In this document: positions 2,843 to 7,229 of the stretch, in pieces
Numbering within the stretch: the first letter of the stretch is position 1
How the letters are laid out: the number at the start of each line of letters is the position of its first letter
Assembly: GCA_030612185.1 (NCBI GenBank)
Contig: JAUWOI010000219.1
Location: 1 to 7,229, forward strand
From: Anaerolineae bacterium
Lineage (GTDB): Bacteria; Chloroflexota; Anaerolineae; B4-G1
Direction of reading: 5' to 3'
Length of the DNA stretch: 7,229 nt
Made by a program: the position numbers and the translations under genes
Notes under the pieces: generated by a model
What the model was told of the DNA's origin: nothing
The model's input: the letters and a program-made list of their open reading frames with translations, nothing else
Databases searched by the model: none

Positions 2843-3205
2843 TTAGCAGGTCACGTGGAACAGCCCGATGACCCTGCCCTGGGCCTTGTTCCATAAGCGG
2901 ATGGCGTCGGGCGTGGCTGCCAGTTTCGTCTGGCAGTTGTGCTTCTGCAAGTATGCCTGGGCCTCTTCCGAAAGGCACACCAGGTCATACTGTCCTGTTC
3001 CAATGATGAACAGTTCCGCCCCCTTTTCGTACACGTACCTGGCCTCGTCCAGTGAAATGGTATGAGAGGTGCCGTAGATTCTCTTGGACAGTTTCTTCCT
3101 GCGCTTCTTGACCGAGCCGTCTAGGCACAGGATGACGTCGTTTCTGATCTCTAGACCGTCAATGGTGATCGAGCCATAGGTCGTGGCCTCGATTTTCGGT
3201 TTCAT
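2843..3205 (-). CDS. Stand-alone Mth938-like (DUF498) domain protein, 120 aa
   Basis: The protein is one Mth938-like domain: a YGSITIDG strand at 10-17, DVILCLDGSVK (23-33), a helix from about 51, then AELFIIGTGQYD (63-74), a helix with LSEEAQAYLQKHN (78-90), TPDAIRLWNK (98-107) and the closing HVTC (117-120). The same order ends the fused PPK2 upstream (YGTIVIDG, DVIIFPDG, EVVIIGLGT, HITC), so two copies of this domain lie within 2 kb. The family fold is known from archaeal MTH938 and from the mitochondrial complex I assembly factor NDUFAF3; its biochemical role in bacteria is unsettled. The ATG at 3205 is preferred over the open frame from 3256 because GGAGG lies 8 nt before it, and the longer version would be read through a palindromic repeat. 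It follows adk by 54 bp and is probably co-transcribed. The Lys/Arg-rich loop VKKRRKKLSKR (32-42) is basic and might contact an anion. Confidence 0.88.
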   Translation of the reverse strand: MKPKIEATTYGSITIDGLEIRNDVILCLDGSVKKRRKKLSKRIYGTSHTISLDEARYVYEKGAELFIIGTGQYDLVCLSEEAQAYLQKHNCQTKLAATPDAIRLWNKAQGRVIGLFHVTC

Positions 3206-3259: not shown

Positions 3260-3913
3260 CTACTTCGCCAGGTTGCGGGCTGCCGCCAGCAGGGCTGCGC
3301 TGACGGTGTCTATGTCCCCTGCCCCGTCCGTCTCCACCAGCAGGCCTGCCTGGCGGTAGTGGTCAATGAGGGGCGACGTTTGCTGGTGATAGACCTTGAG
3401 GCGCGCTCGCACCGTCTCTGGCTTGTCGTCATCCCGCTGGTATAACTCCCCACCGCAACCGTCGCATACTCCTTTCTTGGCTGGCGGGCTGAAGATGGTG
3501 TGATAGGGCGTCTGGCACCGGCGGCAGATCCAGCGGCCTGACAGACGGCTCACCAACTCTTCATCAGGGACGGCGATGTAAAGCACACCGTCCAACCTCC
3601 GCCCCATATCGGCGAGCAGCCTGTCCAGGCTTTGAGCCTGGGGTTGGGTACGGGGGAAGCCGTCGAGGATAGCGCCCTGGTCACAATCGGGCCGTTGTAG
3701 TCGTTCCTGCACCATGGCGATGGTCACGTCGTCGGGCACCAGATTGCCCTTGTCCATGTATCCCTTGGCCAGTAGACCGAGTTCCGTCTCGTTCTTCAAG
3801 TTCTCACGGAACAGGTCGCCGCTGGCTACGTGCGGCAGATGCAGTTCTTTCTCCAATCGCTCCGCCTGGGTGCCTTTTCCGGCGCCGGGCGGGCCAAGCA
3901 AGATAAGGTACAT
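3260..3913 (-). CDS. adk: Adenylate kinase, zinc-LID type
   Basis: Full-length at 217 residues, within the usual bacterial long-form range. It reversibly converts ATP plus AMP into two ADP in the cytoplasm. Visible landmarks are the P-loop GPPGAGKGT (7-15), the AMP-site segment ASGDLFR (30-36), LDGFPRT (83-89), and a LID with four cysteines (Cys130, Cys133, Cys150, Cys153) in two CxxC pairs, which in this family bind structural zinc. The RDDD at 160-163 and the C-terminal arginine helix (ETVRARL) are also in place. The start is fixed by GGAGG 6 nt upstream. Adenylate kinase is more often found with secY and ribosomal protein genes; here it sits after two PPK2 genes. That placement suggests it serves to turn polyphosphate-made ADP into ATP. 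It might be a second adk copy in the genome, which this window cannot show. No key residue is missing. Confidence 0.97.
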   Translation of the reverse strand: MYLILLGPPGAGKGTQAERLEKELHLPHVASGDLFRENLKNETELGLLAKGYMDKGNLVPDDVTIAMVQERLQRPDCDQGAILDGFPRTQPQAQSLDRLLADMGRRLDGVLYIAVPDEELVSRLSGRWICRRCQTPYHTIFSPPAKKGVCDGCGGELYQRDDDKPETVRARLKVYHQQTSPLIDHYRQAGLLVETDGAGDIDTVSAALLAAARNLAK

Positions 3914-3955: not shown

Positions 3956-4079
3956 AATCGGGAGAGAGCGTCACCGCTGTGGCAGGCGTGATGCGTGAAA
4001 CGTGATGAAACATCAGCGTTTGACTCATTCTCACGTTTCACGCTTCACGTGCGCTTGTGTGATAGCGCTCTCCCTGATT
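3956..4079. repeat. Long imperfect palindrome with heptamer repeats in both arms
   Basis: Perfect 13-bp arms GCGTGAAACGTGA (3993-4005) and TCACGTTTCACGC (4031-4043) flank a 25-bp centre. Further outside, GGGAGAG (3960-3966) pairs with CTCTCCC (4068-4074) and AATC with GATT. The arms contain heptamers related to CGTGAAA: three in the left arm (from 3986) and three inverted in the right arm (4031-4051). It fills most of the 194-bp gap between the lysine micro-ORF and adk. It could be a dispersed palindromic element, an RNA structure acting on adk, or an operator array. Confidence 0.6.
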
Positions 4080-4107: not shown

Positions 4108-4176
4108 TTACTTTCCCTTCTTCTTTCCCTTTTTCTTGCCCTTATCCTTCTTCTTGTCCTTTTTCTTCTTTGCCAT
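4108..4176 (-). CDS. Lysine-rich micro-ORF, 22 aa
   Basis: The ATG at 4176 is preceded by AAGGAG with an ideal 6-nt spacer. The frame runs 22 codons to TAA (4110-4108). Fifteen of 22 residues are Lys, with two Asp and three Gly besides Met and Ala, in runs such as KKKKDKKKDK followed by KKKG repeats. The composition matches the basic linker of the fused PPK2 just upstream (KKKGKKKKKSKK). It starts 62 bp after that gene, in the same direction. Polylysine binds polyphosphate electrostatically, and lysine-rich tracts can be polyphosphorylated, so a polyphosphate-binding microprotein is possible. A stalling leader peptide acting on adk is the main alternative, and a non-functional low-complexity remnant of a duplicated linker is a third. 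Expression is not demonstrated; the strong ribosome binding site is the main reason to believe it. Confidence 0.6.
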   Translation of the reverse strand: MAKKKKDKKKDKGKKKGKKKGK

Positions 4177-4238: not shown

Positions 4239-5408
4239 TCAACAGGTGATGTGCAGGATGGCCGCCACCTTGCGCTGGGTTCGCAGTTCCTTGTAGGTCT
4301 CACAGGCTTTGTTGGTTCTGTGGACCATGACCTCGATCCCCGCCTCCTGGAGACATTTCTCTGCCTTGGGGCGCATCTTCACGTTGCCCACAGTGCCCAG
4401 GCCGATGATCACCACTTCCGGCTTGGCCTCGATGACCTTCTTCACGTCCGTGGGGCGCAATACGTGCTCGTCCTTGTGCTCCCAGCGTTCCACTGCACCA
4501 TCAGGGAAAATGATCACGTCTGACTCGTAGGTCTGGCCGTCAATCACGATGGTGCCGTACTCGAACTGGTCAATCATGGGCAACGGCGTCTCCGATAGGC
4601 TCGTTGCTTCGGTCATCTCTGTCTTCTTGCTTTTTTTCTTCTTTTTTCCCTTTTTCTTCCCTCCTTTCTCAGTGTCCGTTGGTATCTCGGCAAGTGGGGT
4701 GTAGTTCAGCTCATGACTGAGTCCGTCCACCAACGTCTTGAGCACTTTGATGCGGGCGTACCATTTGCAGTTTCCTTCGACTATCGTCCAGGGGGCGGTC
4801 AAGGTGCTGGTTTTGAGCAGCATCTCATCTACTGCTTGCTGGTACTGGTCCCACTTTTCTCGATTGCGCCAATCTTCGTCAGTCAGTTTCCAGGCCTTGT
4901 AGTCTATATCTTTCCTGCCCTCAAAACGTCGCAGTTGCTCGTCTCTGCCGATGTGAATCCAGAACTTGAAGAGGATGGTGCCGAAGTCCACCAACTGGCG
5001 CTCGAAGTGGTTGATCTCGCGGTAGGCCCTTTTCCACTCCTCTTCGGTGCAGAAGCCCTCAATCCGCTCCACCATCACCCGGCCATACCAACTGCGGTCG
5101 AAGATAGCGATCTGTCCCTTCTCCGGCAACCGCCGCAAGAAGCGCCACAGGTAGTGATGGGTCTTGTCCTCCCCCTTGGGGGCGGCAATGGGGTAGACCA
5201 CATAGCCCCGTGGGTCGAGTTTCTCCGTCACCCGCTTGATGTTCCCCCCCTTACCGCCGGCGTCCCACCCCTCGTAGACCATGATCACCGGCCGCCGCTG
5301 CACGTAAACCTGATACCCCAGGGCATGCAATGCTACCTGATACCGGATCAGGTCCCTGGCATACTCTTCTTTGGTCAAGGATTTGTTCAGGTCAATTGTC
5401 TCCAACAT
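4239..5408 (-). CDS. ppk2: Polyphosphate kinase 2 fused to a C-terminal Mth938-like domain
   Basis: The protein has 389 residues in three parts. Residues 1-240 are a PPK2 domain with Walker A EGWDAGGKGG (46-55), Walker B FDRSWYGR (103-110) and the lid-side segment around 154-182. FDRSWYGR with Gly is typical of class II, AMP-using enzymes, whereas ADP-specific class I usually has Asn there. Residues 248-262 are a linker with 11 Lys in 15. Residues 282-389 are an Mth938-like domain (YGTIVIDG, DVIIFPDG, EVVIIGLGT, closing HITC). PPK2 alone is usually 230-300 residues, so the fusion accounts for the extra length. The open frame reaches 5483, but the start at 5408 is chosen because the N-terminus (MLETIDLNKSLTKEEY) aligns with that of the adjacent PPK2 (MLEKIDLNKKLSKKEY) and begins 7 bp after that gene's stop. 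The two are probably translationally coupled. The linker DNA carries a possible -1 frameshift signal. The role of the Mth938 part is unknown. Confidence 0.93.
   Translation of the reverse strand: MLETIDLNKSLTKEEYARDLIRYQVALHALGYQVYVQRRPVIMVYEGWDAGGKGGNIKRVTEKLDPRGYVVYPIAAPKGEDKTHHYLWRFLRRLPEKGQIAIFDRSWYGRVMVERIEGFCTEEEWKRAYREINHFERQLVDFGTILFKFWIHIGRDEQLRRFEGRKDIDYKAWKLTDEDWRNREKWDQYQQAVDEMLLKTSTLTAPWTIVEGNCKWYARIKVLKTLVDGLSHELNYTPLAEIPTDTEKGGKKKGKKKKKSKKTEMTEATSLSETPLPMIDQFEYGTIVIDGQTYESDVIIFPDGAVERWEHKDEHVLRPTDVKKVIEAKPEVVIIGLGTVGNVKMRPKAEKCLQEAGIEVMVHRTNKACETYKELRTQRKVAAILHITC
4641..4665 (-). promoter_or_regulatory. Candidate -1 ribosomal frameshift signal (dnaX-like) in the lysine linker
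   Basis: In the reading frame GGA AAA AAG the heptamer A AAA AAG (4647-4641) is in the correct phase for -1 slippage. An AGGAGG (4665-4660) lies 12 nt upstream, matching the stimulatory Shine-Dalgarno placement of dnaX. After a slip, the -1 frame codes for 23 more residues and stops at TGA 4572-4570, giving a 279-residue PPK2 without the Mth938 domain. A Lys/Gly-rich linker makes A- and G-rich DNA anyway, so this may be chance. I did not find a clear downstream stem-loop by eye. Confidence 0.4.
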
Positions 5409-5415
5409 GATTACC

Positions 5416-6252
5416 CTATCCTTTCCCTTCCTCAGCAGCGCCTGCTTCTGGCTCCGCCAATTCGGCCTCTGCCTCCGCCTCAAGTTCTACCTCTTCGGCG
5501 AAATCCTCGTCTTCTCCGGCGAGGGCCTCGGGCAACGCCCCCACCGCCTCCAGCCGCTCGGCCAGTCCGTTGATGATGGTGTTGAGGACCTTGACGCGCG
5601 CCCACCAGCGGCTGGTGGCTTCGACAATGGTCCACGGCCCCCACTCGGTCTCCGTCCGCTCCAGCATCTCCTCCACAGCCAGCAGATACTTGTCGTACTT
5701 GCGGTGGTGCTCCCAATCCTCCTCTGTTACCTGCCAGGATTTCAGTGGGGCTTTCTCCAGAAGTTTGAAGCGTCGCCGCTGCTCCTTCTTACTGATGTGC
5801 AGCCAGACCTTGACCAGGACGTATCCGTCGGCGGCGATGGTCTGCTCGAAATCCACGATGTCCCGGTATGCCTTTCGCCACTCCCGCTTCGGCGTCAGGC
5901 CCTCGACCCGTTCGACCAGCAGCCGGCCGTACCAACTGCGGTCGAAGATGGCCATCTCGCCGTAGTTGGGCAACTTCAACCAGAAGCGCCACAGCCAGGG
6001 ATGCATCTTCTCGTAGGTGCGTGCCCCACGGATGGGATAGAGTTTGAAGCCCCGGGGGTCGAGGCGTTGGGTCAAGGTGGCGATGGTCGTGCCCTTGCCT
6101 GCCGCGTCCCAGCCCTCGAAGAGGATAATGCTGGGGATGCCCGCTTTCCAGGCCGCTGTCTCCAGATCGTACAGCCTGCGCTGGAGTTTGGGCAATTGCT
6201 GCTTATACTCCTTCTTGCTCAACTTTTTGTTGAGGTCTATTTTTTCTAGCAC
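5416..6252 (-). CDS. ppk2: Polyphosphate kinase 2, class II-like, with acidic C-terminal tail
   Basis: The enzyme has 278 residues. The family transfers phosphate from polyphosphate to nucleotides in the cytoplasm; class II members make ADP from AMP. Walker A EGWDAAGKGT (46-55), Walker B FDRSWYGR (103-110), the VERVEG segment (113-118) and TEEDWEHHRKYDKY (176-189) are all intact. The tail from 247 to 275 has 15 acidic residues in 29 and is not part of the catalytic fold. The start is GTG, supported by AAGGAGG 6 nt upstream. It lies 28 bp after the CHAD gene and 7 bp before the second PPK2. Two PPK2 domains in tandem recall polyphosphate:AMP phosphotransferase (PAP), where two such domains sit in one chain. 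Here they are separate proteins, and both keep complete nucleotide-binding motifs. AMP preference is inferred from motif similarity only. Confidence 0.94.
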   Translation of the reverse strand: MLEKIDLNKKLSKKEYKQQLPKLQRRLYDLETAAWKAGIPSIILFEGWDAAGKGTTIATLTQRLDPRGFKLYPIRGARTYEKMHPWLWRFWLKLPNYGEMAIFDRSWYGRLLVERVEGLTPKREWRKAYRDIVDFEQTIAADGYVLVKVWLHISKKEQRRRFKLLEKAPLKSWQVTEEDWEHHRKYDKYLLAVEEMLERTETEWGPWTIVEATSRWWARVKVLNTIINGLAERLEAVGALPEALAGEDEDFAEEVELEAEAEAELAEPEAGAAEEGKG

Positions 6253-6280: not shown

Positions 6281-7229
6281 TCACAGCACCGAGACGGCCA
6301 GGGCCAGTTGCCGGCGCATCTCGGGACGGTTGAAGTGGCGCCACGTTTCGGGGAACGAATCCACCAGGATACGCAGGTCGTTCTGCTTGGCCACCAGGTA
6401 GCGCGTCACCCCGCTGATGTTGATCCGTTCCCGCCACTCCTGCCTGCTCCACTGATTCAGGAATCCGATCAGCAGATGGCAGGCTACGTCGGCATCGTGC
6501 AGATTGCCCAGGTGGTCCTGCACAATCACCACCTCTTCGACCACTTCCTCCACCTCCGGGCCCAGCACCTCCCGGAAGAACTCCAGAGCATAGCGCAACC
6601 GCTTGCAGTCAATGCGCAGGGCGTGGAGTGTCTCCAGCGACGCGTTCTCGATCACCGGCTCGTAGCCGCGCACCACCTCGTAGCGGGTGTAGATCAGGGC
6701 TGGCACCACCTGATATACCTGCTGGGGCACCGGCCTGCCGGGGGGAGGCGGCAGAGCACCGGCCCCTTCCGTGACCAGGAACTGGCCGAATTCCTGCACG
6801 AAACACTGGTACTGCTTGCTGTCCAGGTAGGCCAGCATCTTCGCTCGCGCCGCCTCTCGCTGTCCCCGCCAGTCCTCCAATAGCGCGTCGAGGTCCGAGC
6901 GCTCGTGGGGGTGGGGTGACCCCGCCTGTACTTCCTCCGCCGCCAGATAGTTCTGGGCCTTTTCCATGAAGACGTCGAGGTCGCGCACGCAGCCCAGGGC
7001 ACGGCCGGTGCGTCGCAATCCCTTGAGGAAGCGCTGGAGGGTGTTGGGGTCAAAGTAGGGGGCAAAGACGCGGAAGGCGGAACGCATGCGGCGGGTGGCG
7101 ACGCGCATGTCGTGCAGTTCCTCAATATCCTCCCCCAACCGTGTGCCCGGCTCGTGTTCCAGCATGCGCACGAAGTGGAAGAGTAACGCCTTACGCCCGG
7201 CCTCGCTCATAGGATCGTCGGGCAGGACG
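6281..7229 (-). CDS. CHAD domain protein, N-terminus cut by window edge
   Basis: CHAD is an all-helical domain with conserved histidines and basic residues that binds inorganic polyphosphate and is often encoded beside polyphosphate genes. The two pseudo-repeats are visible: HDMRVATRRMR at 33-43 and HALRIDCKRLRY at 196-207, counted from the ATG at 7210. VQDHLGNLHDADV (229-241) follows. The ATG at 7210 is possible but probably internal. No ribosome binding site precedes it, the frame stays open to the window edge (VLPDDP before the Met), and in related proteins as I recall them that segment belongs to the domain. I therefore annotate the gene as continuing past 7229; an N-terminal CYTH or other domain cannot be excluded. 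It is the first visible gene of the polyphosphate cluster and probably supplies polyphosphate binding near the PPK2 enzymes. A Pro-rich insert (LPPPPGRPVPQQ, 153-164) separates the two halves. Confidence 0.9.
   Translation of the reverse strand, partial: VLPDDPMSEAGRKALLFHFVRMLEHEPGTRLGEDIEELHDMRVATRRMRSAFRVFAPYFDPNTLQRFLKGLRRTGRALGCVRDLDVFMEKAQNYLAAEEVQAGSPHPHERSDLDALLEDWRGQREAARAKMLAYLDSKQYQCFVQEFGQFLVTEGAGALPPPPGRPVPQQVYQVVPALIYTRYEVVRGYEPVIENASLETLHALRIDCKRLRYALEFFREVLGPEVEEVVEEVVIVQDHLGNLHDADVACHLLIGFLNQWSRQEWRERINISGVTRYLVAKQNDLRILVDSFPETWRHFNRPEMRRQLALAVSVL

Follow-up and report, generated by a model that had tools for sequence, protein, structure and literature searches.

A class II-type polyphosphate kinase 2 fused through a lysine-rich segment to a C-terminal Mth938 domain in an Anaerolineae bacterium

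The nearest known class II polyphosphate kinases 2 (PPK2) with which our locus can be compared are the tandem enzyme PA3455 (PPK2C; PDB 3CZP) and the one-domain PPK2-II structures 9GIA and 9H8J, a class recognised by a signature glycine (PMC8776046). On the other side stands the DUF498/Mth938 family, with the structures of MTH938 (1IHN), PH1505 (2CYJ) and human AAMDC (2AB1). Its proteins span archaea to humans, and we found no biochemical role for them in the literature consulted; AAMDC itself is an amplified breast-cancer gene (PMC7998036). A third point of comparison is provided by lysine-rich polyphosphate-binding proteins, such as the KPM targets EngA and SrmB and the tail of AlgP. Polyphosphate was bound by two proteins with 9 lysines per 20 residues and not by two with 5 and 7 (PMC12077175). 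In R. eutropha, only basic polyphosphate kinases localise to granules, a rule that is imperfect in P. aeruginosa (PMC9239181). The locus described here brings these three elements together: its PPK2 domain shares the fold and the class II glycine with the known enzymes, at 48-52% identity over the domain, and differs from them in carrying a lysine tail and an Mth938 domain, which is here fused rather than stand-alone.

The fused protein and its distribution

The window, meaning the whole 7,229-nucleotide stretch analysed, encodes on its reverse strand, where the other genes and frames placed in it below also lie, a protein of 389 amino acids in a single uninterrupted frame of 389 codons (4239..5408). 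A sequence-only reading of this DNA had proposed that a PPK2 and an Mth938-like domain share this protein, and profile searches bear it out. PF03976 matches residues 11-232 (4713..5378; E 1.6e-87, 293.3 bits against a cut-off of 22.3), and PF04430 places residues 279-386 in DUF498/Mth938 (E 1.2e-21; score 77.2 bits, cut-off 33); the fused domain also has the Mth938 fold. The Mth938 domain as a whole occupies residues 279-389 (4242..4574) and closes with HITC at the very C-terminus. Directly before it stands Met278 (4575..4577), which in the alignment is at least 90% conserved across the fused family, a position that would fit the start of a once-separate Mth938 gene.

We searched 5.8 billion proteins with residues 272-389, considering only proteins of 0.55-1.75 times the query length. 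Counting the window's own protein, 49 of 97 candidates passed E 0.001, and all 49 contain both the PPK2 and the DUF498 Pfam domains. Since the fusion is conserved across these clusters, a sequencing error, frameshift or assembly artefact is ruled out, in agreement with the open frame between the domains. The other clusters are 58-97% identical to the window's Mth938 domain. Forty-seven of the 49 are full-length; the remaining two, a 277-aa fragment (P0011) and a protein with an odd N-terminus (P0003), were left out of the identity table. Among the 47, mean pairwise identity is 0.89 in PPK2, 0.60 in the linker and 0.71 in Mth938, so that the Mth938 part changes faster than the PPK2 part. Our search of 5.39 million open-access papers returned no description of the fusion, consistent with the initial impression of novelty; subscription journals and domain-architecture databases lay outside that search, and the fusion may be visible there.

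The relatives listed from sampled genomes are unfused. In the order of genome G001, matches at E 1e-20 occur in 203 of 400 genomes (E <1e-90 in 43 of them), and none of the matches listed spans both domains. A genome_contigs scan yielded 43 loci with no Mth938 match in their DNA, and among the 120 listed of 7994 PPK2 relatives, DUF498 occurs only in P0001. Seen from the other domain, 83 of 396 genomes in the class of G003 have an Mth938 match, and PPK2 was not found by tblastn in 30 of the loci (L049-L078); another of the matches listed is a 357-aa frame of G343. A scan of IMG/VR yielded no relative. Because the relatives listed are unfused and the closest genome seen, G057, belongs to an order of which two species are sampled, the fusion probably resides in a thinly sampled lineage, within the class to which the Thermoflexia MAG of L003 belongs.

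The split PPK2 pair, its operon and its lysine-rich tail

The best PDB matches of the fused PPK2 are class II enzymes (the C-half of 3czp, 9gia and 9h8j), and both PPK2 proteins of the operon match the catalytic C-half of PA3455 best. Gly109 of the fusion aligns with Gly367 of PA3455, the glycine after Walker B that is the signature of class II. Against TIGR03708, the family of two-domain polyphosphate:AMP phosphotransferases, the protein scores 383.2 bits, below the 547.65 of that model, and matches its C-half only; as it works like one half, we call it a split subunit, PPK2b, rather than a member. The second PPK2 of the operon, PPK2a (5416..6252), is its probable partner as judged from Pfam, tree and tail charge. 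Both halves of the tandem PA3455 enzyme are represented in the window, but as separate genes, and PPK2a retains the FDRSWYGR motif that the N-half of PA3455 lacks.

PPK2a and PPK2b occur as separate neighbouring frames in 9 of the 43 loci (L001-L008 and L041; seven Chloroflexota, two Acidobacteriota), while in other phyla they lie head to tail in one protein. In the PPK2 tree, split PPK2b proteins and fusions (support 100/98) group with tandem C-halves (100/99), and PPK2a falls with tandem N-halves on the opposite side. This tree omits P0003, P0011, 29 more fusions, 11 tandem loci removed to thin the set, and any locus lacking two long PPK2 matches. In it L001, which is unfused, branches among the fusions; a single fusion clade is neither shown nor rejected (p-AU 0.361). 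The C-terminal tails differ in charge: all 10 from PPK2a are acidic (net -1 to -18, with -15 in the window) and all 9 from PPK2b are basic (net +3 to +12, the linker in the window having +5), and such opposite charges might aid pairing of the split halves. Separately, the PPK2a of L002 (4556-5605) is another PPK2 fusion, which ends in a domain resembling the RNA polymerase alpha CTD (PF03118, E 1.5e-8).

Around the pair lie a CHAD domain gene (6281..7210; Pfam), whose frame is open to the window's edge, an adenylate kinase (3260..3913; Pfam/NCBIfam) and a stand-alone DUF498/Mth938 paralogue of 120 aa, Mth938-2 (2843..3205; DUF498 42.1 bits). Two further long frames (832-1620 and 1686-2978) have no Pfam or NCBIfam match at E 0.01. 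CHAD is a polyphosphate-binding family (PMC6537752), and among the nine split-PPK2 loci a CHAD match is present in the DNA of five and an adenylate kinase match in three. Taken by the established activities of these families, the operon reads as polyphosphate binding by CHAD, conversion of AMP to ADP by PPK2a/b and conversion of 2 ADP to ATP and AMP by adenylate kinase. PPK2b-Mth938 would then be the catalytic subunit, resembling the C-half, of a polyphosphate:AMP phosphotransferase of class II that is split in two, its AMP specificity being presumed from family membership, and it is probably paired with PPK2a; the adenylate kinase would go on to make ATP from the ADP, and the operon would recharge AMP from polyphosphate.

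The lysine-rich segment (about residues 246-272; 4593..4673) is predicted to be disordered, with pLDDT below 50 at residues 246-249 and 252-272. It had been taken for a linker. The richness in lysine stands, but the segment appears older than its linking role: the PPK2b proteins of L001-L005, which are unfused, have lysine-rich C-terminal tails (those of L006 and L008 are short), and among the 20 best unfused matches in the order of G001, where L098 is the same gene as L001, 16 tails have at least 6 lysines and 4 have at most 2. On sequence comparison, the linker is the old PPK2b tail and predates the fusion. In all 49 fusions it is the densest lysine window of the whole protein (median 11 lysines per 20 residues); the window's own has 11 in 20, above the roughly 9 per 20 of the two lysine-rich (KPM) proteins that bound polyphosphate. 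Because 42 of 49 fusion linkers reach at least 9 in 20, against 6 of 20 unfused tails, densification of lysines may have accompanied the fusion. The segment shares with EngA, SrmB and the AlgP tail its lysine density and its polyphosphate setting, and polyphosphate binding is predicted for it: inherited from unfused ancestors, it would keep the enzyme on polyphosphate.

A short open reading frame for a lysine-rich peptide of 22 aa, preceded by a ribosome-binding-site-like AAGGAG, lies 3' of the fusion (4108..4176). The same start (AAGGAG, then MAK- or VAQ-) occurs in frame inside the PPK2b tails of L002 (6373) and L004 (8749), the peptide again follows Mth938 in G057 (L083), and the start was not found in the other 27 loci scanned. 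These positions would fit insertion of Mth938 between tail and peptide, and the domain may have been added to the end of the lysine tail, probably once. Between the peptide and adenylate kinase, there is also an inverted repeat (3964-4072; 42-nt arms, 71% complementary); none of 113 loci contains a 12-base stretch taken from its core.

The closest genome adds a variation on this arrangement. G057, whose adenylate kinase and CHAD match those of the window at 88% and 72%, has the order CHAD, Mth938, lysine-rich ORF, adenylate kinase, Mth938-2 (L083), and PPK2 was not found in its draft genome. Its CHAD homologue is a 582-aa frame (L083 7793-9541, reverse strand) with an N-terminal HD/Ppx-GppA-III-like part. 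As its Mth938 retains E314, N342 and K367, three residues typical of the fused domains (see below), G057 looks like a descendant of a fused ancestor that later lost PPK2, with misassembly of the draft genome a possible alternative. Since G057 kept this Mth938 beside CHAD and adenylate kinase with PPK2 not found, the domain need not act on PPK2.

The Mth938 domain and its possible role

One group of the Mth938 tree (99/97) unites all 49 fused domains with that of G057 and leaves 38 other domains outside. The window's Mth938-2 sits on a separate branch with its orthologues from G057, G007 and G238, which rules it out as the source of the fused domain. Of the motif-by-motif likeness first claimed between the two, the HxTC that closes both is borne out, but the domains are only about 28% identical and belong to different old branches.

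G285, D297, H315, G336, G338, T365, A368, H386 and C389 are each present in 94% or more of the 48 fusion rows and in 89% or more of the 38 others (P0003, the G057 domain and the RNase_H_2 protein P0050 were left out of these rows). E314, N342 and K367, by comparison, are fixed or nearly so in the fusions (96-100% of rows) and occur in 0-5% of other rows of the family. They may have been re-fixed beside the core in the fused lineage, which would suggest a new, perhaps anionic, ligand or partner; along the sequence they do not lie significantly nearer to the core than expected at random (p 0.26), and they could reflect the shared ancestry of one clade. Cysteine is the last residue in 46 of 49 fusions, in all 39 distinct complete domain ends from the fetched loci (of 52 places, 5 are truncated where the locus stops) and in all 62 long proteins recovered together with the RNase_H_2 fusion. 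The total is 147 of 150, with near-copies of one protein or more (L058/P0051) present in both the set of 39 and that of 62.

That RNase_H_2 (YprB-like) protein is a second conserved Mth938 fusion, seen in L058 (1501-3216, reverse strand) and P0051-P0110, ending in HLTC, HITC or HLSC, and assigned to Chloroflexi/Anaerolineae wherever an organism name is given. In a search begun from one such protein, 60 of 62 matches combine RNase_H_2 with a C-terminal Mth938. As in the window, Mth938 is the last domain, but the catalytic partner differs and the Mth938 of these proteins, P0050 included, lies apart from the PPK2-fused group. One DLH-hydrolase protein likewise has the domain at its C-terminus, and from these two further partners it looks like a reusable C-terminal module. 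If its function requires the free C-terminal cysteine of HxTC, it could be added only at a C-terminus, as in each kind of fusion here. We rejected a general Mth938-polyphosphate neighbourhood: around 29 other Mth938 loci, counting 69 of 82 picked neighbours (13 overlapping the Mth938 gene were left out), the neighbours are mixed, with no polyphosphate family among the 25 families shown of 97, none of them in more than 3 members, and SecDF at 2 of 69. A functional tie between the domain and polyphosphate or nucleotide chemistry, as initially suggested, is thus partly supported: that the fusion exists, that it is conserved and that it lies in a polyphosphate/adenylate operon speak for a link to polyphosphate-AMP chemistry, but the fused lineage is the only link found and the domain also occurs in RNase_H_2 and DLH proteins.

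Our best explanation of the whole, which we advance tentatively and at a little less than even confidence, is a split class II PPK2, tethered to polyphosphate, whose Mth938 domain would be a C-terminal module for sensing a ligand or for docking. A published survey of domain architectures names DUF498-like domains as possible ligand binders in fusions with Lipocone enzymes (PMC12419801), and for ligands of Mth938 proteins the available part of PMC11263603 offers docking predictions only; the literature consulted, so far as available, yielded no measured ligand of any member. A more specific version, which we consider unlikely as it stands, makes Mth938 a general C-terminal sensor with a pocket formed by the thiol and carboxylate of the terminal cysteine together with HxT, retuned here through E314, N342 and K367 to a phosphate- or nucleotide-like signal that would gate polyphosphate-driven ATP recharging.

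Possible, if somewhat doubtful, is that Mth938 senses no ligand and is purely a protein-docking or assembly module that recruits PPK2a, adenylate kinase, Mth938-2 or CHAD to the polyphosphate surface. Human AAMDC binds RabGAP1L (PMC7998036), a second Mth938 protein is present in the operon, the domain sits at the C-terminus of unrelated proteins, and the disordered linker and a pTM of 0.65 for the fusion model predict no fixed packing on PPK2. Against this, DSSP of the model places G336, T365 and H386 at, or directly following, strands 332-336, 359-363 and 381-385, an arrangement resembling a pocket at strand ends. It is improbable that a neighbouring Mth938 gene merely joined PPK2b by stop loss and rides along near-neutrally: Met278 looks like an old start and the linker sequence is variable, but the in-frame fusion is retained in 47 full-length clusters, with domain identity down to 48% and the core residues kept. 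Two enzymes of one pathway are often fused, and His386 and Cys389 are nearly invariant, yet an enzymatic Mth938 that uses them and the GxG loop on a nucleotide or phosphate compound that PPK2 produces or uses is very improbable, given that no activity was found for any member in the literature consulted, that the cysteine is missing in 3 of 49 fusions and that the RNase_H_2 and DLH partners have no evident chemistry in common with PPK2.

Conserved in fusion with an enzyme whose polyphosphate/AMP reaction is simple to assay, Mth938 becomes open to a direct test of its function, and the lysine tail and lysine peptide bear on how enzymes stay on polyphosphate. If the sensor reading is true, the fusion would be the first handle on a biochemistry common to AAMDC and other Mth938 proteins.
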